Virus record (IMG/VR): IMGVR_UViG_3300023109_000152
Location: 1-22,863 of that record
Strand: one strand, 5' to 3'
DNA: 22,863 bases
From: a virus
The translations under genes were made by a program, and so were the position numbers. Every line of letters starts with the position of its first letter. Position 1 is the stretch's first letter. Shown here piece after piece: positions 2,126 to 20,336 of the stretch. The notes beneath the pieces were generated by a model. The model saw only the letters and a program-made list of their open reading frames with translations, made no database searches and was not told where the DNA came from.

Positions 2126-4420
2126 ATGGCAGAAAGAATTGTATCACCTGGAGTATTTACGAGAGAAAATGACCTTTCGTTCTTAGCACAAGGGGTTGGA
2201 GAAATAGGAGCAGCGTTCATTGGACCTTTCAAACAAGGTACGGCGTTTGTTCCGACAGTAGTTCGAACTCAAAGTGAGTTTGAAGATAAATTTGGTACAC
2301 CTGATGGTACTTACTATACAGAGTATGCAGTGCAGAACTATTTAAGGGAAGCAGGAAGTGCAACTATTGTTAGAGTAGCAGGTGTAGATGGTTATAGTCA
2401 AGTAGCACCTATTGGTATTGCAGTAACTGGTTCAGCTGGATTAAAATTAATTTCAACACTTCACTCAACACATAATGGTGATGAAGAAGTTGGATTTGGT
2501 GGATTTAGTGTAGCTGATGGAAGTGCAACAGGTTCATTTGTTGTTAGTGGTAGTGGAATTGGAGAAATATCTTCTTCTTTAGACTCAACTGATAATAACG
2601 ATGTAACTGATGTATTCGGTTCTAATCCAAGAGGTTCGAAAGATGCATATACATATTCTTACTTTAAGAACGCATATGATGGAATAACTTCTAAAAATGA
2701 AGTTCAAGCAGTTGTATTACCAACTCAAAACTTTTCTTATGATGCTAGTACAGCAGTAACACCATATGTAAAATCACAATTAATCTCCGGTGAAAGATAT
2801 GACCTATTTAAGTTCTATACTTTAGGACATGGTAATGGTGAAAATAAAAGATTTAAGATTTCCATATCTGGTGTTAAGGCAGCAGGTGAAGATGGAGGAA
2901 CTGATTACTCAGTATTTAGTGTAACTGTTCGTTCTTATAATGATACTGATAAGAGAAAAGTAGTATTGGAATCTTTCAATAATGTAAACTTAGATCCAGG
3001 CTCAGCAAATTATATTGCTAGAGTAATTGGTGATAGATGGAGTACTATTGATTCAAATGGTAAGATTACCGAAAATGGTGATTGGATAAACAACTCTAAG
3101 TATATTAGAGTAAAAGTAGGAGAGCAAGGTTCATATCCTGTATCTGCTGCACCATTCGGACATGGAGCTTATTCTAACCCAATTAAAGCAACTGTTGAAA
3201 CTATTGTTCCTTCAGTTGTATTACAAACTGGTTCGATAGCTAACACAACTGGTAACCCACAATATTATGCTGGATTTGATTTTGAATCAATCGGTATAAA
3301 AGATGATAACGCTAACTATATGAAACCTCTACCTGAAAGTGTAGGAGTTGGTTCAAACGTAGTATTTGGATTTGATGGAAATGTAAGTGGAGTTGGTTTA
3401 ACATTAGAAATGACTGGTTCGGCAACTGAGGATATGATTAAGAGACAATTCTCTTTAGGTTTCCAAGGTGGATTTGATGGAATGAGCCCGAATAGAGAAA
3501 TCGCTTTAGGTTCTTCAATTTCAACTGGAAATTCGCAAGGATTTGATTTAACTGATTCAACTAAGTTTGGTTCTAAAGCATACGCTAAAGCTGTGAACGC
3601 AGTTTCAAACGCTGATGAGTATGATATTAATATGGTAGTAACGCCGGGTATTGTAAGAAGATTACACCCAGCAGTTACAACTGATGTATTAGATATGGTA
3701 GAAGCTAGACAAGATTGTTTCTATATTTCTGATTTAACTGGAGTAAACGATACAATATCGCAAGTAACTACTCAGGCTAACGCAATTGATTCAAACTATA
3801 TAGGTTCTTATTACCCTTGGGTTAAGACTGTAGATTCAAATACAAACAAACTAATCTCAGTTCCACCTTCAGTATTACTACCCGCAGTATATGCAGCAAA
3901 TGACGCTATTGCAGCTGAATGGTTCGCACCTGCTGGTTTGAATAGAGGAGGTATTATAGGAGCAGTTAGTGTACTAAATAGATTAACACACTCTGAAAGA
4001 GATACTTTATATGAAAACAAAGTAAATCCAATCGCTTCTTTCCCTGGACAAGGTATTGTAGCATTCGGACAGAAAACGTTGCAAGATAAAGCATCAGCAC
4101 TTGATAGAATTAATGTTAGAAGATTATTAATCAACGTTAAGAAGTTTGTAGCATCTACATCTAGATTCTTAGTATTTGAACAAAATACGGCTCAGACAAG
4201 AGGTAGATTCATTAATACTGTACAACCTTATTTAGAAGGAATACAACAAAGACAAGGATTGTACGCATTTAAAGTAGTTATGGATGAATCTAACAACGGA
4301 CCTGATGTGGTTGATAGAAACATACTTGCTGGACAGATATTCTTACAACCGGCTAAGACAGCTGAATTCATTGTAATTGATTTCAACATCTTACCAACTG
4401 GAGCATCGTTCTCAGCATAA
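2126..4420 (+). CDS. 18: Tail sheath protein (T4 gp18-like)
   Basis: A 764-residue protein, longer than T4 gp18 (about 660). The N-terminus (SPGVFTRENDLSFLAQG, then GAAFIGPFKQGTAFVPT and SEFEDKFG) is the typical gp18 start. The C-terminal part (RGRFINTVQPYLEGIQQRQG, FKVVMDESNN, ILAGQIFLQPAKTAEFIVID) is the conserved sheath core that connects neighbouring subunits. It forms the contractile outer cylinder of the tail. The start codon has one of the few clear Shine-Dalgarno sequences in the window (GGAG, 5-nt spacer), which fits high expression. The extra length probably lies in the variable surface domains in the middle of the protein. The tube gene follows directly, as in T4. Confidence 0.96.
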   Translation: MAERIVSPGVFTRENDLSFLAQGVGEIGAAFIGPFKQGTAFVPTVVRTQSEFEDKFGTPDGTYYTEYAVQNYLREAGSATIVRVAGVDGYSQVAPIGIAVTGSAGLKLISTLHSTHNGDEEVGFGGFSVADGSATGSFVVSGSGIGEISSSLDSTDNNDVTDVFGSNPRGSKDAYTYSYFKNAYDGITSKNEVQAVVLPTQNFSYDASTAVTPYVKSQLISGERYDLFKFYTLGHGNGENKRFKISISGVKAAGEDGGTDYSVFSVTVRSYNDTDKRKVVLESFNNVNLDPGSANYIARVIGDRWSTIDSNGKITENGDWINNSKYIRVKVGEQGSYPVSAAPFGHGAYSNPIKATVETIVPSVVLQTGSIANTTGNPQYYAGFDFESIGIKDDNANYMKPLPESVGVGSNVVFGFDGNVSGVGLTLEMTGSATEDMIKRQFSLGFQGGFDGMSPNREIALGSSISTGNSQGFDLTDSTKFGSKAYAKAVNAVSNADEYDINMVVTPGIVRRLHPAVTTDVLDMVEARQDCFYISDLTGVNDTISQVTTQANAIDSNYIGSYYPWVKTVDSNTNKLISVPPSVLLPAVYAANDAIAAEWFAPAGLNRGGIIGAVSVLNRLTHSERDTLYENKVNPIASFPGQGIVAFGQKTLQDKASALDRINVRRLLINVKKFVASTSRFLVFEQNTAQTRGRFINTVQPYLEGIQQRQGLYAFKVVMDESNNGPDVVDRNILAGQIFLQPAKTAEFIVIDFNILPTGASFSA

Positions 4421-4472: not shown

Positions 4473-4961
4473 ATGGCAGAAGTATTAGAATTTAACGAAA
4501 TGATGTTCACCAACTTCGAACCGAAGATGAAGAACAGGTATATAATGGAGATTGATGGAATTCAATCATACCTTATAAAAGCTGCAAGTAGACCTTCGAT
4601 AAACTTTGAGACGGTGAAATTAGACCACATCAACACTTATAGAAAACTACAAGGTAAGGGAGAATGGCAAGACATTACAATAACAATGTATGACCCAATC
4701 GTACCTTCAGGCGCTCAACAAGTGATGGAATGGGTTCGTTTAGGATATGAATCGTTAACAGGTAGAAAAGGATATGCAGATTTCTATAAAAAAGATATAG
4801 ATTTCTATATGTTAGGACCTGTTGGTGATAAAATCGAACAATGGAAGTTGAAAGGTGCATTTATTACATCTGCAAACTTTAACGATTTATCATTTGATTC
4901 TAATGACCCAGCTGATATCGAATTAACCCTTTCTTACGATTACGCAATATTGGAATTTTAA
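4473..4961 (+). CDS. 19: Tail tube protein (T4 gp19-like)
   Basis: A 162-residue protein, the usual size for gp19. The segments FEPKMKNRYIMEIDGI near the N-terminus, KAASRPSINFETVKLDHIN, and DITITMYDPIVPSGAQQVMEWV match T4-like tube subunits. The end, ADIELTLSYDYAILEF, is also typical. It polymerises into the inner tube inside the sheath, through which DNA passes. It sits directly after the sheath gene and is followed by an intrinsic terminator, so sheath and tube form a two-gene unit. Confidence 0.95.
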   Translation: MAEVLEFNEMMFTNFEPKMKNRYIMEIDGIQSYLIKAASRPSINFETVKLDHINTYRKLQGKGEWQDITITMYDPIVPSGAQQVMEWVRLGYESLTGRKGYADFYKKDIDFYMLGPVGDKIEQWKLKGAFITSANFNDLSFDSNDPADIELTLSYDYAILEF

Positions 4962-5074: not shown

Positions 5075-5848
5075 ATGAGCGAAAATAAATTTGAATTCCC
5101 AACTGAGGTAATTGATTTACCATCTAAAGGTTTGGGATACCCAGAAGGACATCCCCTAAAAAAAGGAAATATTGAAATTAAGTATATGACTGCAAGAGAA
5201 GAAGATATTCTTGCATCTCAATCCTTAATTAGAAAGGGTGTAGTATTAGATAAGTTGTTTGAATCAGTAGTTGTAGAACCAAATGTTAATATCAATGATA
5301 TTTTTATTGGAGATAAGAACGCTATTCTATTAGCAACTAGAGTATTAGGTTATGGTGCAGAATACAAAGTAGAGATAACTGACCCATCTACATTAGAAGA
5401 GCAAGAAGTAATTATTGACTTATCTAAAGTAAAAACCAAAGATTTTAATGAGGAATTACTAAATTCTGAAAATCTTTATAAATTTAAATTACCAAGAAGT
5501 GGAACTGAATTAGAGTTTAAACTTTTAACACATGGTGATGAATTAGAAATTACAAAAGAAAACCAAGCACTGGCTAGATTATATAAAGGAAAGGGAGATT
5601 CTACATTTGATGTAACCACTCGTTTAAAGTATATGATTCAATCAGTAGATGGTAATAAAGATAGAGGGTATATTACTAAGTGGGTACAAAACTCATTCTT
5701 AGCATTAGATACTAAAGCATTTAGAAAATACGTTAAGGAAATCAGTCCAGATATGGATTTAAAGTTTAACTTCACTTCGGAGTTAACGGGTGAGGAGGAG
5801 GCACTCGATATTCCCTTTGGGGCCGGGTTTTTTTACCCTGCCGAGTAA
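5075..5848 (+). CDS. 26: T4 gp26-type baseplate/tail assembly protein, probable chaperone
   Basis: A 257-residue protein of the T4_baseplate (gp26-like) family. The N-terminus LPSKGLGYPEGHPLKKG, then IEIKYMTAREEDILASQSLI and GDKNAILLATRVLGYGAEY, is the family signature. In T4, gp26 is a baseplate hub assembly factor. Here it sits between the sheath/tube pair and the tape measure gene, the place that tail assembly chaperones (lambda gpG/gpGT, Mu gp41/42) occupy in other phages. Its end, GAGFFYPAE, overlaps a second frame at a run of seven T bases, so a longer frameshifted product is likely. Family call is firm; the chaperone role is inference. Confidence 0.85.
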   Translation: MSENKFEFPTEVIDLPSKGLGYPEGHPLKKGNIEIKYMTAREEDILASQSLIRKGVVLDKLFESVVVEPNVNINDIFIGDKNAILLATRVLGYGAEYKVEITDPSTLEEQEVIIDLSKVKTKDFNEELLNSENLYKFKLPRSGTELEFKLLTHGDELEITKENQALARLYKGKGDSTFDVTTRLKYMIQSVDGNKDRGYITKWVQNSFLALDTKAFRKYVKEISPDMDLKFNFTSELTGEEEALDIPFGAGFFYPAE

Positions 5849-6041
5849 CTACTCAATTCAACTTCATGACCAAATTTGGGAAATGGTTAACTTCGGTAAT
5901 GGTTTTACTTGGAGAGATGTTTACTTCATGCCAATACAATGGAGAAAGTTCTATTTCAAGAAGTTGATAGATTTAAAGAAAAAAGAATCAGACCAAATGA
6001 AAAAGGCTGAAAGACAATCAAAAGTAAGGGTTAGAAAATAA
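5790..6041 (+). CDS. 51: gp51-like C-terminal frame, probably expressed by ribosomal frameshift from the gp26-type gene
   Basis: This frame is +1 (equivalently -2) relative to the upstream gene. The open part can be read from a GTG at 5790, but the first ATG is at 5883, inside the conserved region. Homology-like content starts before that ATG (YSIQLHDQIWEMVNFG), continues with FTWRDVYFMPIQWRKFYFKK, and ends in a Lys/Glu-rich helix. This resembles the small gp51-like proteins that follow gp26 in marine T4-like phages. The absence of an upstream ATG and the T7 slip site at 5828-5834 suggest it is made as a fusion, entering the frame near base 5835. An independent short protein from 5883 is the alternative. 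Confidence 0.7.
   Translation: MRRRHSIFPLGPGFFTLPSNYSIQLHDQIWEMVNFGNGFTWRDVYFMPIQWRKFYFKKLIDLKKKESDQMKKAERQSKVRVRK
5821..5842 (+). promoter_or_regulatory. Predicted +1/-2 frameshift site: T7 run in a GC-rich hairpin loop
   Basis: In the 5075 frame the codons are GGG TTT TTT TAC. A Phe tRNA on TTT 5831-5833 can re-pair on TTT 5832-5834 (+1); a -2 slip is also possible. Either leads into the 5790-6041 frame. GGCCGGG (5821-5827) can pair with CCCTGCC (5836-5842) with one mismatch, placing the T run in an 8-nt loop. GAGGAGGAGG lies about 27 nt upstream (5792-5801). Confidence 0.6.
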
Positions 6042-6099: not shown

Positions 6100-6309
6100 A
6101 TGGGAAAAAACAAAACAAACGAAGGTTTATTTGGAGCAGCAAAGAAGTTTTCAGATGCATTCTTTGATGGTTTATCTAAAAACGCATCTAATAGAATGAT
6201 TCAAAAAGCTAGAAAGGCTGGATTACCAAAAGATGCTATCGATGTAATGAATAATATCCAAAAAGAAAAAGATTATTTAGATTCATTACTTAAAAAATAT
6301 GAGAATTAA
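6100..6309 (+). CDS. Small basic protein of unknown function upstream of the tape measure
   Basis: A 69-residue Lys- and Asn-rich protein, predicted mostly helical (LFGAAKKFSDAFFDGLSKNA, then NRMIQKARKAGLPKDAIDVM, then a Lys/Glu/Leu helix). It has no signal peptide. It is the first gene after a terminator and promoter-like element, and it is followed 16 nt later by the tape measure gene. I do not recognise the family. A tail assembly or scaffolding role is suggested by place only. Confidence 0.65.
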   Translation: MGKNKTNEGLFGAAKKFSDAFFDGLSKNASNRMIQKARKAGLPKDAIDVMNNIQKEKDYLDSLLKKYEN

Positions 6310-6325
6310 TATTTGTTAAACAAAA

Positions 6326-8602
6326 ATGGCAGATAATACTGAGTTAAAGACTAGACTTCAATTACTGAATGAAATTGAGGATAAAAATAACCGAATTGAA
6401 GCGGCCATAAAAAACTCTGCCTTAAATCAAGATTTATTAAACAGATATACAGATTTACAAAAATCTAAAAACAAAGAACTTATATCTCAATTAAAAATTG
6501 TAAACAAAACACGTTTAGAAGGATTATCACAAGCCGAATCTTCATTATCTTCAATAGGTTCAATGTACGATAATATTACTAATTTAGAAAAAGATAGAAT
6601 ACTTAACACTCTTAAAGTTGGAGATTTAACAGATACCCAATTAAAGGCATTTGATGAAATGGCATCTATAAACCAAAAGATATCTCAATTAGGTAGAGAT
6701 GATATTGCACAAAGAGCTTTATTGGTAGATGAATATAAGGAACAAGCAAAATTAGCAGGAGATTTAAATGATGAAGGAAAAGCTGTACTAGCTAACCTTA
6801 CTCAGCAAAATACGTTAGCATTAGAACATAGTTCTTTAACTAAAAAACAAAAAGAATTTCTTCAAAAACAACTTAATGTTTATGAAGGTATAAAAGATAC
6901 AATCGGTGGGATATTAGAAACTGCATCATTACTTACATCAACTGTTGGTGGGGTATTGGGTAGTGCACTTATTGGAGCTGGTGTAGCCGGAAAAAAATTA
7001 TTAGATACATCATATCAATTAGGTGGTTCACTTTTAGATACATCTAATATATCAACAACATTATTTGGAACTGTATTCGAAGATGCAGTCGGAACTACTA
7101 AATCTCTTTCAAAAGAATTTGGTGGATTAAGTGATGTATCTTTAACAACTCAATTCAGAACAAATGTAATAGCTAAGAATTTAGGTATAGGTGCATCTGA
7201 AGCAGCAGCCCTAACAGGTCAATTTGCTCGTTTAAATGATGGTTCTGCCTCAACTGCACAAAATTTAATACAACAAACTAAAAACTTAGCACAACAAAAT
7301 GGATTAGTTCCAGCTGATGTAATGGCTGATGTGGCTAATTCAGCAGAAGCGTTTGCACTATTTGGAAAAGATGGTGGTACTAACATTGCTGAAGCTGCAG
7401 TTGCTGCTGGTAAGTTGGGTGTTTCAATGTCTCAAATTAGTGGTATCGCTGATAACCTTTTAGATTTCGAATCATCTATTAATGCAGAACTTCAGTTAGG
7501 TGCTATGTTAGGTAAAAATATCAATTTAGATAGAGCCAGAGCATTAGCATATGAAGGTGACTTAGGTGGTATGGTTAGAGAAACATTATCATCATTAGGT
7601 GGTATTGAAGAATTCAATAAAATGGATGTATTCCAAAAAAGAGAAGTTGCCAAGTTATTAGGTGTATCTGCTGATGAATTCCAAAAGATGGCAGCCAACG
7701 CTGATAAATTAGGTAAAAATGGAGAAGTAATACCAACTCAATACGAAGCAACCTTAAACACTATGAAGGCGTTTGGTTCACAAATCTTTAGTGGGATTCA
7801 AGGATTAGGTAGTATGGCTGTTGCTGCTGGACAAATGGGTTTCAGCTTAAAAGATGGTTTATCATCTATGAAAGGAATGGGTGGTTTAGGTGGAAAGATT
7901 GGAAAAATATTTAGTAAAGGAGCTCCAACTATGGATGGTCCACTAACTAAGGCTGGTAAACCTGATATGAGATTTAACTCTAATAAAGGGTTAGGAAAAA
8001 TGTCTAAAGGTGGAGGAATGGGTGGAATGATGAAAGGTATGGGTGCCGGAATGAAAGGTATGGCTAAAGGCTTCGCTGCATTTGCTAATCCAGCAACTCT
8101 ATTAGGACTAGCAGCAATTACTGCAGGAATTATAGGTATTGGGTATGCATTAAGAATAGCTGCACCTGGAATTGAATCACTTGGTAAAGCAATTGGTTCT
8201 ATTGTAGAATCGATAGGTAATGCAGTAAAAACAATTATAGGTGGATTGGGTGATTTCTTTATGAAAGTAGCATCAGTAGCAACTCCAGAACTTGCATTAT
8301 CTGTTTTAGGATTAGCTGGTGGGTTTTATGCCTTGACTGGTTCATTGGCAGCATTTGCAATTGCTGGAATAGCCGCAATACCTGCTATGTTAGCAGTTAG
8401 TGCTTTTGGAGCAGCAAGTGGACTTTTAGATTTAGGTGGAGATAGTGGTAGTAGTGGGGATTCTGATTTAATAAATGAAATTAAAGGATTAAGAGATGAT
8501 TTAATTAGTGGTAAAGTTGGAGTTTATTTAGATGGAAAAAAAGTAGCTGCTTCGGTTGCTAGAGTTTCAAACGCTAATTCATTTAACTTATATAGTAATT
8601 AA
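6326..8602 (+). CDS. Tail tape measure protein
   Basis: A 758-residue protein with the usual build of a tape measure protein. The first 200 or so residues are charged and helical (coiled-coil-like). The middle is Ala/Gly-rich. A Met/Gly/Lys-rich low-complexity block sits at about residues 559-582. Two hydrophobic segments follow, at about 583-612 and 655-705. The end (GLRDDLISGKVGVYLDGKKV, then ASVARVSN) is typical of tape measure C-termini. It fills the tube during assembly, sets tail length and leaves with the DNA. At about 1.5 angstrom per residue it would give a tail near 110 nm, an estimate only. It follows the chaperone-like pair and precedes the baseplate genes, the normal order. Confidence 0.88.
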   Translation: MADNTELKTRLQLLNEIEDKNNRIEAAIKNSALNQDLLNRYTDLQKSKNKELISQLKIVNKTRLEGLSQAESSLSSIGSMYDNITNLEKDRILNTLKVGDLTDTQLKAFDEMASINQKISQLGRDDIAQRALLVDEYKEQAKLAGDLNDEGKAVLANLTQQNTLALEHSSLTKKQKEFLQKQLNVYEGIKDTIGGILETASLLTSTVGGVLGSALIGAGVAGKKLLDTSYQLGGSLLDTSNISTTLFGTVFEDAVGTTKSLSKEFGGLSDVSLTTQFRTNVIAKNLGIGASEAAALTGQFARLNDGSASTAQNLIQQTKNLAQQNGLVPADVMADVANSAEAFALFGKDGGTNIAEAAVAAGKLGVSMSQISGIADNLLDFESSINAELQLGAMLGKNINLDRARALAYEGDLGGMVRETLSSLGGIEEFNKMDVFQKREVAKLLGVSADEFQKMAANADKLGKNGEVIPTQYEATLNTMKAFGSQIFSGIQGLGSMAVAAGQMGFSLKDGLSSMKGMGGLGGKIGKIFSKGAPTMDGPLTKAGKPDMRFNSNKGLGKMSKGGGMGGMMKGMGAGMKGMAKGFAAFANPATLLGLAAITAGIIGIGYALRIAAPGIESLGKAIGSIVESIGNAVKTIIGGLGDFFMKVASVATPELALSVLGLAGGFYALTGSLAAFAIAGIAAIPAMLAVSAFGAASGLLDLGGDSGSSGDSDLINEIKGLRDDLISGKVGVYLDGKKVAASVARVSNANSFNLYSN

Positions 8603-13376: not shown

Positions 13377-14645
13377 ATGGTTGTAGTAGAATCTAATAAA
13401 GAGATAGAACATTTCATGCAAATGTGGGAGAATAATCCTTCCATAGTTGTACCGATATGGTGTGATTTGGAAAAACATCCAATGAACAATAACCTTGCGT
13501 TCTTATTCGTAAGGGTGGAAAAAACTGACTTTATTCTCATATACAATCATATTGATGGGAAATCTCATCATTTAGACCTCTCAACCTCCACACAACCAAA
13601 ATGGGTATGGAATAAGAAGGGTTTACTACAAACTGATACAAATATACAAAATATTTTTGATATATCCAATTATAACTTCTTTGAAGGTGGTAAAATTATA
13701 CCCGATGAGGTACAAAATCAATCATTTATATCACATTATACCCGAATGGGTATACGAGAGAATTTAGGAAAGATAGCACCTTTGATGAAATGGAGTGAGT
13801 ATCTTAAATCATTTATAAGTAAGTTTAATCTTCCTACTCCTTCTAAAAGTTGGATTGATGATACGATGATTCCCCTTCTCTCAGATATAGAACGTTTTGG
13901 GGTTCGGGTCGATGAGAAAAAATTTATTGATAGGTATCCTCAAGCTACTAAACATCTTAAAGATAACATTCTTTATACCGAATACAACCCATACACCATT
14001 ACATCCCGTCCATCTAATAGGTTTGGTGGAATCAATTTCTCAGCTTTGAATAAGAAAGATGGAACGAGAGAAGTATTTATCCCAAAAGAGAATCACATAT
14101 TCCTTCAAATGGATTATGATGCATATCACCCCCGTATCATTGGTAAGTTGATTAAATACGATTTACCCGATACATCGGTACACCAATGGTTAGCTGACCA
14201 ATACGAAGTTGAGTATGGTGAGGGTAAAGGAATTACATTCCAATTACTATATGGTGGTATACCTGAGGAGTTTGACTCTATTCCTTATTATAAGAAGGTT
14301 AGAGAGTTTATTGAGAAATTATGGAGTAAGAGTAGTGAAGTGGGATATCTTCAAACACAACATAGGAGAATCCCTCTGAGTAGTATAGAAGGATTGAATC
14401 CGCAGAAGTTATTTAATTATTTACTACAAGCGACTGAAACTGAGTTAAATATGGGTATAATGAAAAAAGTTGTAGAGTTTATTAAAGAAACAAAAATTGA
14501 ACTTACTCTTTATACTTATGATTCATTCTTATTTAGTTATCCATCTGATACTCCTAAAGAACATGCTCTAAAACTGAAAGAGATAGTAGAATCGTTTGGG
14601 TTTCCTATAAACGCTGATTGGGGAACGGATTACTCAAAAATTTAA
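13377..14645 (+). CDS. Compact family A DNA polymerase
   Basis: A 422-residue protein. Motif A is DYDAYHPR at residues 246-253, with catalytic Asp246 and the conserved Arg253. Motif B has K284, F288, Y292 and G293 in the K-xxx-F-xxx-YG spacing. Motif C is YDS with Asp382. Upstream are the entry signature ERFGVRVD (ending at 179) and TSRPSN (209-214), equivalent to TGRLSS of Pol I. Only about 30 residues separate these two, where Pol I has a thumb of roughly 100, so the thumb seems almost absent. The N-terminal 150 residues (PIWCDLEKHP, FILIYNH) may be a worn exonuclease-like fold. It likely replicates phage DNA, and lies between tail genes behind its own host-type promoter. The motif A Glu (steric gate) is His251. 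Confidence 0.85.
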   Translation: MVVVESNKEIEHFMQMWENNPSIVVPIWCDLEKHPMNNNLAFLFVRVEKTDFILIYNHIDGKSHHLDLSTSTQPKWVWNKKGLLQTDTNIQNIFDISNYNFFEGGKIIPDEVQNQSFISHYTRMGIRENLGKIAPLMKWSEYLKSFISKFNLPTPSKSWIDDTMIPLLSDIERFGVRVDEKKFIDRYPQATKHLKDNILYTEYNPYTITSRPSNRFGGINFSALNKKDGTREVFIPKENHIFLQMDYDAYHPRIIGKLIKYDLPDTSVHQWLADQYEVEYGEGKGITFQLLYGGIPEEFDSIPYYKKVREFIEKLWSKSSEVGYLQTQHRRIPLSSIEGLNPQKLFNYLLQATETELNMGIMKKVVEFIKETKIELTLYTYDSFLFSYPSDTPKEHALKLKEIVESFGFPINADWGTDYSKI

Positions 14646-14655
14646 TATTTATAGG
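14644..14655 (+). promoter_or_regulatory. Candidate late promoter motif (AATATTTATAGG)
   Basis: It overlaps the polymerase stop codon and lies 19 nt before the ATG at 14675. The AATATTTATAGG core matches the motif at 16626-16636 almost fully. It suggests that the downstream gene is transcribed apart from the polymerase. Confidence 0.55.
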
Positions 14656-14674
14656 ATATAGGAAGAATTACACT

Positions 14675-16603
14675 ATGGAGAAAAACGAATTAATCAAAGA
14701 ATTACTATCTGAGTTATCTTATCGTTCTAACGAAGGATACCCTATGTTAGATAATAGAGAACAAATATCTATTCTAGCTGAGATATTGGATGAGTGGGGA
14801 TATACCGAAATCAAAAACGAATTAATTGAAAATCTTTTAGAAGTAGATAAAGAAACATTTACTGCTACAAAGAAAGATACAGGTGAAACATCGGTATTCA
14901 AAACAAAAGATAGTAGAGATTCGGCTATTGAAAAGGGAACTCATGCCAAGAAAGAAGATTCTGGAGAAAATGATTCTAAAGAAAAACCAAAAACAGCTGT
15001 AAGTCCAGGTACTCCTTCTGGTGATTCTTATAATGATTCACTATCTGATAATGACCCAGCTAAAATTAAAAAACCTAAAAAAGAATCTAAAGGAAACGGA
15101 TATACTGGTTCTAAGAATAAAACACTAACAAAAGTAAATCCTATCGAATCTAAAAATTATCAAATGGAATTAGAACCAAATGATGATGTTTTTGAAGAAA
15201 AAAATAAAAATAATGCAAATCCAACTCCACCTGAACCATTAAAATTAGATGGATTTATTAAAAATCCAAAATTTCCAAAAAGGTATGTTAAGGTTTTAGA
15301 ACGAATGGTAAATTCCAAAATAACATCTGAAACAGCTAAATGGACACACTTCTCTGATATTGAAGGGGGAGCTGGTAAGATATCAGCACAAGCTGGTGAA
15401 CTTATGACTATGATGGGTTCAACAATGAGTGATGATGAGTGGAATAAATTTTCGGAAGCACTACTTAACTATGAAACGGAATTAAAAAATAATCACAAAG
15501 ATGTTTTTATGAAGAAAAACAAAAAAGGTGGTTATGTTGATAATCCAGGTTCTCGTATTATAGATAAGAGTTGGATAAAGGCAGCTACTCAAAGTAGAAA
15601 AGCAATCAATGATAGATTAGAAAAACAATATGGTGAGGGAACTACAATTGTAGCTAGTTCATGGGATGCTGAAGGTGAAGCTGAATCTATGGGAATACAA
15701 GATTACAAAAAAAATAAAGGTTTTTCAACTGATATGTATCTTAGAGTTAGAAAACCAAATGGTGAAGAAGTATTAGATGAAATTTCACTTAAAAAATCTA
15801 AAGATGTAAATTTCCTAAACTCTGGAGCTGGTCAATTTAAAGATTGGTTAGGGGATGATTTACCAGATGAGATAAATCAAAGTGTTTACAAAGAAAATCA
15901 GAGAGAAAGTATATCAACTACTGGTGAAGGTATAAAATCTGATATAGAATCTTTATTAAAAGATAATCCCGAAAAAGCTAAAGAATTACAAAAGGTATTC
16001 AAAGCCAAAGGTTTAGATTTTAATAAAGCATTGGATAACTTACAAAATGGTAAGGGTGATTATAGAAAAAGTTCATCCGTTGTTATGGCATCAATAAAAG
16101 CTGTTGCTGATTGGCCGAGTTGGGGTAAGAGAAATGATAAAGGACCTAATACAACTGGTAATATGATAGCCCAACAATATCTAAGAGAAGCATCAGAAAA
16201 ACAAACTAAATTTATAGAAGCATCTATAAAATCACTTTCTGAGAATCCTAAGATGAAAGAAGGAATGATGACATCTATAAGAGAAGAGTTTCCACTAAAA
16301 GCAGTATCTGAAGGTGAAGAAACTATGGCAATAGGTGATATGTCATTAGATAAAGATACGATGATAGAAATATTTGGAACATCTAACTATGATAATATAA
16401 AAGAGAAATTAGTTTCAGAACCAGGACCACCACCATTTTTAGGGTATCGAGCTGATATAGGAGGTGATGTAATTCCAATAGCAGAAGTTAGTGTAAGGGA
16501 AGATGGAGTAGGATATGGAGGTCAGATTAAATTTGAAATGAAATTAGATAAACGATTTGCTAAAAGATTGAATGATGCAACTTCTAAAGTTTATTCCAAA
16601 TAA
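14675..16603 (+). CDS. Large protein of unknown function with possible PD-(D/E)XK-like core
   Basis: A 642-residue protein. The ATG at 14675 is preferred over the ATG at 14618, which lies inside the polymerase gene and upstream of the candidate promoter. Residues 1-55 are helical and acidic (MEKNELIKELLSELSYRSNE). About 65-190 is a Lys/Ser/Asp-rich, probably disordered linker. A folded part from about 195 to the end includes FSTDMYLRV (Asp353) and, after a short hairpin, DEISLKKSK (Glu369, Lys373) then GAGQFKDWL. This strand-hairpin-strand with Asp and ISLK resembles PD-(D/E)XK nuclease-like folds in some phage proteins, but the match is by eye. A virion or head-associated role is possible given the late-type motif. 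Confidence 0.7.
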   Translation: MEKNELIKELLSELSYRSNEGYPMLDNREQISILAEILDEWGYTEIKNELIENLLEVDKETFTATKKDTGETSVFKTKDSRDSAIEKGTHAKKEDSGENDSKEKPKTAVSPGTPSGDSYNDSLSDNDPAKIKKPKKESKGNGYTGSKNKTLTKVNPIESKNYQMELEPNDDVFEEKNKNNANPTPPEPLKLDGFIKNPKFPKRYVKVLERMVNSKITSETAKWTHFSDIEGGAGKISAQAGELMTMMGSTMSDDEWNKFSEALLNYETELKNNHKDVFMKKNKKGGYVDNPGSRIIDKSWIKAATQSRKAINDRLEKQYGEGTTIVASSWDAEGEAESMGIQDYKKNKGFSTDMYLRVRKPNGEEVLDEISLKKSKDVNFLNSGAGQFKDWLGDDLPDEINQSVYKENQRESISTTGEGIKSDIESLLKDNPEKAKELQKVFKAKGLDFNKALDNLQNGKGDYRKSSSVVMASIKAVADWPSWGKRNDKGPNTTGNMIAQQYLREASEKQTKFIEASIKSLSENPKMKEGMMTSIREEFPLKAVSEGEETMAIGDMSLDKDTMIEIFGTSNYDNIKEKLVSEPGPPPFLGYRADIGGDVIPIAEVSVREDGVGYGGQIKFEMKLDKRFAKRLNDATSKVYSK

Positions 16604-18803: not shown

Positions 18804-20336
18804 ATGAAAATAGTTATAGCGGGTGGAGGAACTGCTGGTTGGTTATCAGCATTATTCCTAGCCAAACAAAATTTACACAGAGATATTCCAGCTTACGATG
18901 TTACTCTTATAGAGAGTGATGATATTCCAATTATAGGAGCTGGTGAAGGTTCAACTGGAGTACTACAAAAAGTACTTCTATCTACTTTAAGAGAATTGGA
19001 AGGATTTGGAGAACAAGAGTTTTTTGAAAATTGCAATACAACATTTAAATTAGGAATCGATTGTATTGATTGGAATGGGGTAGGTGATAGATTCTTTGCA
19101 TCCTTATCAGGAACACAAACTTCAGAATGGCCATTGGATAGAGATTTTACGATTTGTTCAAAATACGGAAACTCTGCAGAATCTAGTCCTAACAAATATC
19201 TTTGGGAAAAAAATCTAACACCATTTTTAAAAACTCAAAATAACGATAGCTACGAAACTGGATATGCATATCACTTTGATGCACATAAAGTGGGTGAGTG
19301 GTTTAAGAAGATTGCATTGGAAAATGGAATCAAATTACAAAAAGGTACAATAACCGATACTAAGTTAAATTCAAAAAATGGTGAATTGGATAAAGTAATA
19401 CTTTCCGATGGAACTGAAATAGAATCTGATTTTTGGATTGATTGTACTGGATTCAATAGAGTACTGAGTAAATCAGTTGGTTCAGAATGGGTTTCATATT
19501 CAGAATATCTACCAATCAACTCAGCATTAGTTTATTCACACCAATATGAAGAAGGTGAAGAAATATCACCTGCAACAACTGCATGGGCAATGCCAAATGG
19601 TTGGATGTGGCAAATTCCAACTCAAGAAAGATTAGGATGTGGATATTGTTATTCTGATAAGTTTGTATCTGAGGAACAAGCTCTGAAAGAACTACAAGAA
19701 GTTACTGGTAGAAAGATAACACCTCTTAGAACTATTAAGTTCGATAGTGGTAGGTTGAAAGAAGTTTGGAAAAAGAATGTACTTTCAATAGGATTATCAT
19801 CTTCCTTCTTAGAACCATTAGAAGCAACATCAATACATTCATCCATAATTCAGTTAGTACAACTAACACAACATCACTTATCACCTTACAAAGAGGATAT
19901 GATGAGAGAATCAAACATCAAAGCAAATAACGAACACTTTAATATGATGTTAGATGAATTCAGAGCTTTGATTCAAATACACTATATTACAAAAAGAGAT
20001 GATACTCCATTTTGGAAATATGTACATAATGATTTAAAGAGAGACCCATTAGTTGAAAGAATTTTAGAGATATGTGAATATAGAGTTCCAAACGCTAATG
20101 ATTTCCCACATTACAATGGTTCAGCTGGTTGGGGTGTGTTTAATTGGATATTGGGTGGAAATGACTTAATCAGTAAAGATGCATTAGATAAATCCCTAAA
20201 TACTCATAATTTTGAAAAATCATCTGAACAAATTTACAAACATATGGTAAAACAATACACATTTGATAGTAAGCAACACTTTCCACATACTAAATTTATC
20301 AATTGGACAAAAGATTTTTCAAAAAAAGAAAAATAA
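18804..20336 (+). CDS. prnA: Flavin-dependent tryptophan halogenase (PrnA-like)
   Basis: A 510-residue protein with the full signature of FAD-dependent halogenases. GGGTAGW (residues 7-13) is the FAD-binding turn. IGAGEGST follows. Lys82 in FKLGIDCIDW is in the place of the catalytic Lys of PrnA (Lys79). WMWQIP (267-272) is the WxWxIP motif that sets halogenases apart from monooxygenases. Glu340 in EPLEATSI matches the catalytic Glu of PrnA (Glu346). It would chlorinate or brominate tryptophan or another indole using FADH2 supplied by the host. Similar genes occur in T4-like cyanophages, where the purpose is unsettled. The start follows the previous stop codon directly. The substrate cannot be told from sequence. 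Confidence 0.93.
   Translation: MKIVIAGGGTAGWLSALFLAKQNLHRDIPAYDVTLIESDDIPIIGAGEGSTGVLQKVLLSTLRELEGFGEQEFFENCNTTFKLGIDCIDWNGVGDRFFASLSGTQTSEWPLDRDFTICSKYGNSAESSPNKYLWEKNLTPFLKTQNNDSYETGYAYHFDAHKVGEWFKKIALENGIKLQKGTITDTKLNSKNGELDKVILSDGTEIESDFWIDCTGFNRVLSKSVGSEWVSYSEYLPINSALVYSHQYEEGEEISPATTAWAMPNGWMWQIPTQERLGCGYCYSDKFVSEEQALKELQEVTGRKITPLRTIKFDSGRLKEVWKKNVLSIGLSSSFLEPLEATSIHSSIIQLVQLTQHHLSPYKEDMMRESNIKANNEHFNMMLDEFRALIQIHYITKRDDTPFWKYVHNDLKRDPLVERILEICEYRVPNANDFPHYNGSAGWGVFNWILGGNDLISKDALDKSLNTHNFEKSSEQIYKHMVKQYTFDSKQHFPHTKFINWTKDFSKKEK

Follow-up and report, generated by a model that had tools for sequence, protein, structure and literature searches.

A predicted +1 frameshift links a gp26-type protein to a C-terminal domain in putative tail assembly chaperone genes of T4-related phages

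Results and Discussion

A gp26-type gene ends at a run of T beside a second reading frame

The window analyzed here is the whole 22,863-nucleotide stretch of viral DNA under study. Positions 5075–5848 on its + strand encode a gp26-type protein of 257 residues, a putative short tail assembly chaperone that we refer to as TAC-N. The protein matches the Pfam family T4_baseplate (PF12322; 8e-8, 32.6 bits, exceeding the curated cutoff of 24.5) and the baseplate hub family phrog_150 (2e-11), and its AF2 model (pLDDT 90) resembles predicted "baseplate hub" structures, such as that of Bacillus phage SP-15 (TM 0.81). The 3' end of the gene reads TTT GGG GCC GGG TTT TTT TAC CCT GCC GAG TAA. As an earlier note on this DNA had described, the gene ends in GGG TTT TTT TAC, with seven T bases at 5828–5834 that form the candidate slip site TTT TTT T. 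The run is preceded by a GGG codon (5825–5827), whose third base is not T, and the TAA stop codon of the short form lies 12 nt past it at 5846–5848.

A second open reading frame (5790–6041) lies in the +1 frame, equally the −2 frame, relative to the gp26-type gene and reads FFTLPSNYSIQLHDQIWEMVNFGNGFTW... The part after the run (5835–6041, + strand) comprises 68 codons and a TAA stop at 6039–6041; positions 5835–6038 encode TLPSNYSIQLHDQIWEMVNFGNGFTWRDVYFMPIQWRKFYFKKLIDLKKKESDQMKKAERQSKVRVRK, a putative C-terminal domain (TAC-C). Its first ATG after the run, at 5883, corresponds to residue 17 of the 68-residue domain, and the start-like codons further upstream in this frame (GTG at 5790 and TTG at 5817) are not conserved. 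When the two proteins were modeled apart with AF2, the 68-residue domain formed three helices (residues 6–19, 26–31 and 34–61) with a pLDDT of 85. Translation of 5075–6041 (+ strand) with one forward slip at 5828–5834 gives a predicted fusion of 321 residues (TAC-NC).

Upstream of the gp26-type gene are a tail sheath gene (2126–4420, identified with Pfam and PHROG) and, on the + strand, a tail tube protein gene (4473–4961; PF06841, 5.5e-9; phrog_4542, 4.6e-30). Downstream on the same strand, positions 6326–8602 encode a 758-residue protein that is probably the tape measure protein, given its BLASTP match (4e-15) to the protein annotated as tape measure in Flavobacterium phage immuto. The pair had been said to sit just upstream of the tape measure gene, which is correct for its general placement, but one 69-aa ORF without a Pfam or PHROG match (6100–6309, + strand) intervenes. 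Microcystis phage Mel-JY01 carries a similar-sized ORF at the equivalent position, a likeness of size and place. Because the gp26-type gene lies between the tube and tape measure genes, it occupies the place of lambda G and T.

The +1 frame is maintained as a protein-coding sequence in relatives

Relatives of the gp26-type gene were gathered from viral contigs, phage genomes and metagenome-assembled genomes (MAGs), yielding 207 distinct proteins in 70 clusters at 75% identity. An earlier subset of 124 distinct relatives was used for the 60-codon openness and substitution counts. In the enlarged set, the +1 frame is open for 40 codons or more in 197 of the 199 loci with complete downstream sequence; this count, like the others given here, was taken over related sequences and is descriptive rather than a probability. 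The frame relation is thus kept across the related loci, an alignment check that the earlier note had called for. Among the first 124 loci, the +1 frame stays open for 60 codons or more beyond the run in all 120 that are complete, compared with 4/122 for the −1 frame and 0/124 for the gene's own frame, and the openness of the +1 frame is far above chance.

Substitutions within the domain follow the same frame. Differences between related pairs fall at the first, second and third positions of +1 codons 5176, 2838 and 14079 times, respectively, and 11279 codon changes are synonymous compared with 6122 nonsynonymous changes. This third-position and synonymous bias indicates that the +1 frame is under purifying selection as a protein. 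The proposal that a conserved-looking shifted frame begins before the ATG at 5883 is therefore borne out by the open +1 frame and the synonymous substitutions. Within the shifted-frame domain taken by itself, no stretch was sufficiently conserved to serve for searching viral contigs. RM378 and phages of Gram-positive bacteria have the same frame relation, but the resemblance of their domains is remote.

The putative slip site is UUU followed by a pyrimidine, and its variants favor a +1 shift

In every relative with an open +1 frame (202/202), the gene contains a UUU codon in frame with U or C as the next base. Phe is written there as TTT far more often than as TTC (244 to 2 over the two Phe codons of the site), compared with 956 to 446 elsewhere in the same genes. 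The commonest sites are UUU UUU UAC and UUU UUU UGG; UUU CUU UGG (30), UUC UUU UGG (11) and UUU CUA UGG (4) also occur, along with single cases of UUC UUU UAC, UUU CUA UUC, UUC UUU CGU (phage GXN1), UUU UUU CAC and UUU UUU AGU. Many relatives have no T run beyond three or four bases (TTTCTTTGG, TTTCTATGG, TTCTTTTGG), with the frame relation unchanged.

We tabulated the re-pairing of tRNA-Phe at these sites. One base forward, tRNA-Phe re-pairs at every site tested, whereas two bases back it does so only at some and fails at UUC UUU U, UUU CUA, UUU CUU and UUC UUU C. The shift into this frame had been proposed as either +1 or −2. A shift to that frame is supported, and the variants that permit forward but not backward re-pairing (TTC TTT T, TTT CTA and TTC TTT C among them) favor +1. 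A −2 shift, as proposed for phage Mu, would add one extra Phe to the fusion. On the T7 run itself it would be feasible, since tRNA-Phe in the P site at the second UUU also re-pairs two bases back, and −2 shifting in the Mu tail genes is known (PMC5009743). Yet the four site types that bar such re-pairing retain the same frame relation; this argument reaches only the sites other than T7, and we regard a −2 shift as unlikely.

Elements that might stimulate a +1 shift were sought around the run. Shine-Dalgarno-like motifs within 20 nt upstream are present in 10/124 loci and are not conserved. The Shine-Dalgarno-like AGGAGGAGG in the window, approximately 27 nt upstream, was rejected as a stimulator because it is too distant and because such motifs lie near the run in just those few loci. 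A hairpin in the window, GGC.GGGT-T6-ACCC.GCC (−12.1 kcal/mol), was also rejected as the mechanism, as its GGGT arm is missing from relatives in which TCG, GAC or AAC precedes the run. Downstream RNA structure gave no consistent signal, with mean z-scores from −0.2 to −0.8. With neither a conserved stimulatory structure nor a conserved Shine-Dalgarno-like element, the slip could be of low efficiency, and the locus would represent a compact +1 site that can be tested with reporters in bacteria.

The Tyr codon after the run (5834–5836 in the window) is TAC in nearly all loci, compared with 789 TAT and 244 TAC elsewhere in these genes. This preference may reflect dual coding, as the same bases contribute ACC in the new frame.

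T is avoided before the T7 run, and cyanophage-type homologues show the opposite pattern

In none of 151 distinct relatives is the T7 run preceded by T; G, C or A takes that position, although codon usage for the same residues would lead one to expect T in approximately 81. After clustering at 75% identity, T is found in 0/57 cases (approximately 30 expected). A preceding T does occur where the run is broken (GGT TTC TTT). Placed before an intact T7 run, T would turn it into the tandem −1 slip site U UUU UUU.

The same flank bears on RNA polymerase slippage, which would generate transcripts missing one U and so deliver the identical product by ordinary translation. Seven T bases fall within the conceivable range for slippage, but an eighth T would aid it and is never found before the run, and the frame relation is the same in the many relatives whose runs stop at three or four T. 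We therefore consider polymerase slippage highly improbable.

In cyanophage-type loci, exemplified by S-PM2, P-SSM5 and their relatives, a gp26 gene is accompanied by a short "gp51". They share with the window the gene family, the place in the gene and a companion that is out of frame at a polyT site. The companion, however, is in the −1 frame at NNT TTT TTC with a start codon nearby, whereas that of the window is in the +1 frame. The NNT TTT TTC site is present in 70/70 loci, and the −1 frame is open for at least 45 codons in 67/67, compared with 0/69 for the +1 frame. Frameshifting is likely in these loci as well, although it is less forced because in all 70 the −1 frame contains a start codon near its beginning. 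Set against the +1 counts, these data show that, at one place of one gene family, both the frame of the companion and the flank of the site are reversed between the two groups. In the huge phage L086 (LR756511.1), the gp26-type gene extends beyond its usual end (RRRRKTETVEETNSNSGDI) and the −1 frame contains a domain-like ORF; L086 was rejected as a member of the +1 group because the +1 arrangement is absent there.

Start codons are often missing, and two loci have lost the site and the open frame together

The downstream domain could instead be a separate short protein, made from an internal start (GTG 5790, TTG 5817, CTG 5838 or ATG 5883) or by reinitiation past the stop codon. Such start-like codons are present in the window, and the early −1-frame start codons of the cyanophage-type loci would allow the same there. 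However, 52/202 loci lack any ATG, GTG or TTG in the +1 stretch that runs from the previous stop codon to codon 11 of the domain, and in many loci a +1-frame stop lies immediately 5' of the run (e.g. GTA GAC TTT and ATA AAC TTT). Initiation at ATG 5883 would also forfeit most of the conserved first helix.

A related locus of precisely this separate kind, with an ATG-started companion gene, had been named as a finding that would refute frameshifting. Two such loci were found, L350 (TTC TTG TAT) and L355 (TTC CTT TGG), and they are the only two complete loci without UUU and a pyrimidine and also the only two in which the +1 frame is closed. Their companion domain has its own ATG, two or five bases past the stop codon, and is 51–55% identical to that of a fused relative (E below 1e-18). 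The joint loss of site and open frame provides a natural control that supports the role of the slip site. In a separate gene, neither the frame relation nor the UUU and pyrimidine would have to stay constant, and the loci that use an ATG have lost both; we thus find a separate protein very unlikely in the window, while L350 and L355 suggest that the domain may be able to work as one. In both loci, the ATG-started gene (from position 1923 on in each) gains a new N-terminal segment of approximately 23 residues.

Homopolymers are prone to sequencing and assembly error, but the chance that the frame break is such an error, or marks a pseudogene, is negligible: the relation recurs in more than 200 distinct sequences, spanning many metagenomes, the isolates immuto, Mel-JY01, SP-15 and LIS04, and MAGs, and including sites without a long run.

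The C-terminal domain may be related to the tail of T4 gp51

T4 gp26 and gp51 both match PF12322 (9e-64 and 4e-52, respectively), with gp51 carrying an extra C-terminal tail. In hhalign comparisons, the cyanophage −1 domain (the short "gp51") aligns with the T4 gp51 tail (Prob 97.8, E 1.1e-12), and phrog_634 matches both. The +1 domain aligns in register with the cyanophage −1 domain (Prob 61.8, E 7.6e-5) and scores Prob 1.6 against the T4 tail directly. By these comparisons, the +1 domain would correspond to the T4 gp51 tail and the short cyanophage "gp51", with a moderate link to the cyanophage domain and a weak one to the T4 tail. The proposed union of gp26 and gp51 is supported in this form, with the domain as a putative counterpart of the C-terminal tail of T4 gp51 rather than of the whole protein. 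Most simply, T4 would divide between two genes what a single gene yields in these phages.

Searches of the PDB for a chaperone fold of the N-domain returned nothing significant (HK97 gp13, 2ob9: prob 0.33, E 1.8), and a fold search with the 68-aa domain likewise found nothing significant. A PDB sequence search with the gp26-type profile retrieved only engineered repeat proteins, which we judged spurious.

A model for the locus and its relation to known systems

The locus is very probably a lambda gpG/gpGT-like tail assembly chaperone pair made by +1 frameshifting in a T4-related contractile-tailed phage. The programmed frameshift and the parallel with lambda gpG/gpGT, both predicted earlier, are supported by the frame relation, the UUU and pyrimidine, and the two site-loss loci. 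We infer that most ribosomes would follow the gp26-type frame to the stop codon at 5846 to produce the 257-aa short chaperone. A minority would slip forward by one base with peptidyl-tRNA-Phe on UUU within 5828–5834, because tRNA-Phe can re-pair with the overlapping UUU. These ribosomes would continue with ACC CTG CCG ... and so add the helical domain at the C terminus of the 321-aa fusion. On the lambda analogy, both products would bind the tape measure protein through their common body, and the minor one would use its tail domain to recruit tail tube subunits. The chaperone function presumed for the pair draws on its family, its position and the same analogy.

In lambda, short and −1-frameshift-extended tail assembly chaperones are known as gpG and gpGT (Levin 1993; Xu, Hendrix, Duda; PMC5009743). 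As in lambda, two products, one short and one extended, would come from one message between the tail tube and tape measure genes; unlike lambda, which uses −1, the window indicates +1, and its N-domain belongs to the T4 gp26 family. A recoding review describes tail-gene frameshifting as conserved "except T4" (PMC5009743). T4-like chaperones were identified by Vladimirov, Gautam and Davidson (Virology 566:9, 2022), as cited in PMC10885494, which paraphrases that work as finding, in some T4-like phages, a short gene together with a longer, fused one. PMC12846349 cites the same work for polyT slip sites in T4-like phages, described as −1. The window shares with T4-like gp26/gp51 the PF12322 N-domain and the short and long versions, the long one with a C-terminal tail, but T4 has two separate genes where the window has a single gene and a shifted second frame.

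A parallel for direction is the predicted +1 frameshift at TTT-CGC in myovirus tail chaperones of the HF1-group haloviruses (PMC7230728) and HSTV-2 (PMC5009743). UUU and a pyrimidine, a predicted +1 shift and a putative myovirus tail chaperone are common to these viruses and the window; the hosts of these viruses are archaeal. Influenza A PA-X, according to the title of reference 27 in PMC7230728, arises by +1 frameshifting at UCC UUU CGU. There too the Phe codon UUU slips forward before C without an evident stimulator, and the GXN1 site UUC UUU CGU resembles both this site and that of the HF1 haloviruses; the gene is that of an unrelated eukaryotic virus, and the comparison applies to the decoding event alone. 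RF2 (prfB)-type +1 shifting, with its stop codon in the A site and a Shine-Dalgarno-like stimulator close upstream, differs from these loci, where UUU UUU is mostly followed by UAC or UGG rather than a stop and Shine-Dalgarno-like motifs are rare. Xu et al. are said to have described a −2 frameshift in the Mu tail genes in 2004. Such a shift reaches the same alternative frame, but Mu-type re-pairing of the P-site tRNA two bases back fails at four site types here, and +1 fits the sites.

T4-like chaperones and polyT slip sites have been reported already. In the literature consulted, where Vladimirov et al. 2022 was represented by the papers that cite it, we saw nothing on a +1 direction, on the flank rule or on site-loss controls; all three appear to be new. 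T4, once listed as an exception, now falls within a family where frameshifting is widespread. In annotations of phages of this kind, the second product is absent or mis-started (e.g. immuto and SP-15).

On balance, we favor the view that one homologous chaperone family has switched shift direction and that the flanks set it: a −1 site has U ahead of the run and C at the end of it, while a +1 site lacks the leading U and has UUU followed by a pyrimidine. There would have been two exits from frameshifting, a T4 26/51 duplication with an in-frame long form and the separate ATG-started domain of L350 and L355. This natural series (+1, −1, two genes and separate domain) lends itself to studying the evolution of shift direction and the control of the short-to-long chaperone ratio.

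Hosts and other genes of the window

DNA-level comparison with phage records found no near relative of the window. Among genome contigs, gp26-type relatives turned up in several Flavobacteria MAGs, which makes Bacteroidota plausible as hosts of such phages. Elsewhere in the window, positions 128–1318 encode a tail fibre-like protein whose C-terminal part is a peptidase S74 intramolecular chaperone domain (PF13884, 4e-11). Directly after the baseplate genes, a 422-aa ORF (13377–14645) weakly matches family A DNA polymerase (PF00476, under the curated cutoff). A 661-aa ORF without a Pfam match (14618–16603) lies between this polymerase-like fragment and small ORFs. Also in the tail and replication neighbourhood is a gene for an FAD-dependent tryptophan halogenase (18804–20336; PF04820, 5e-97), possibly an auxiliary metabolic gene.
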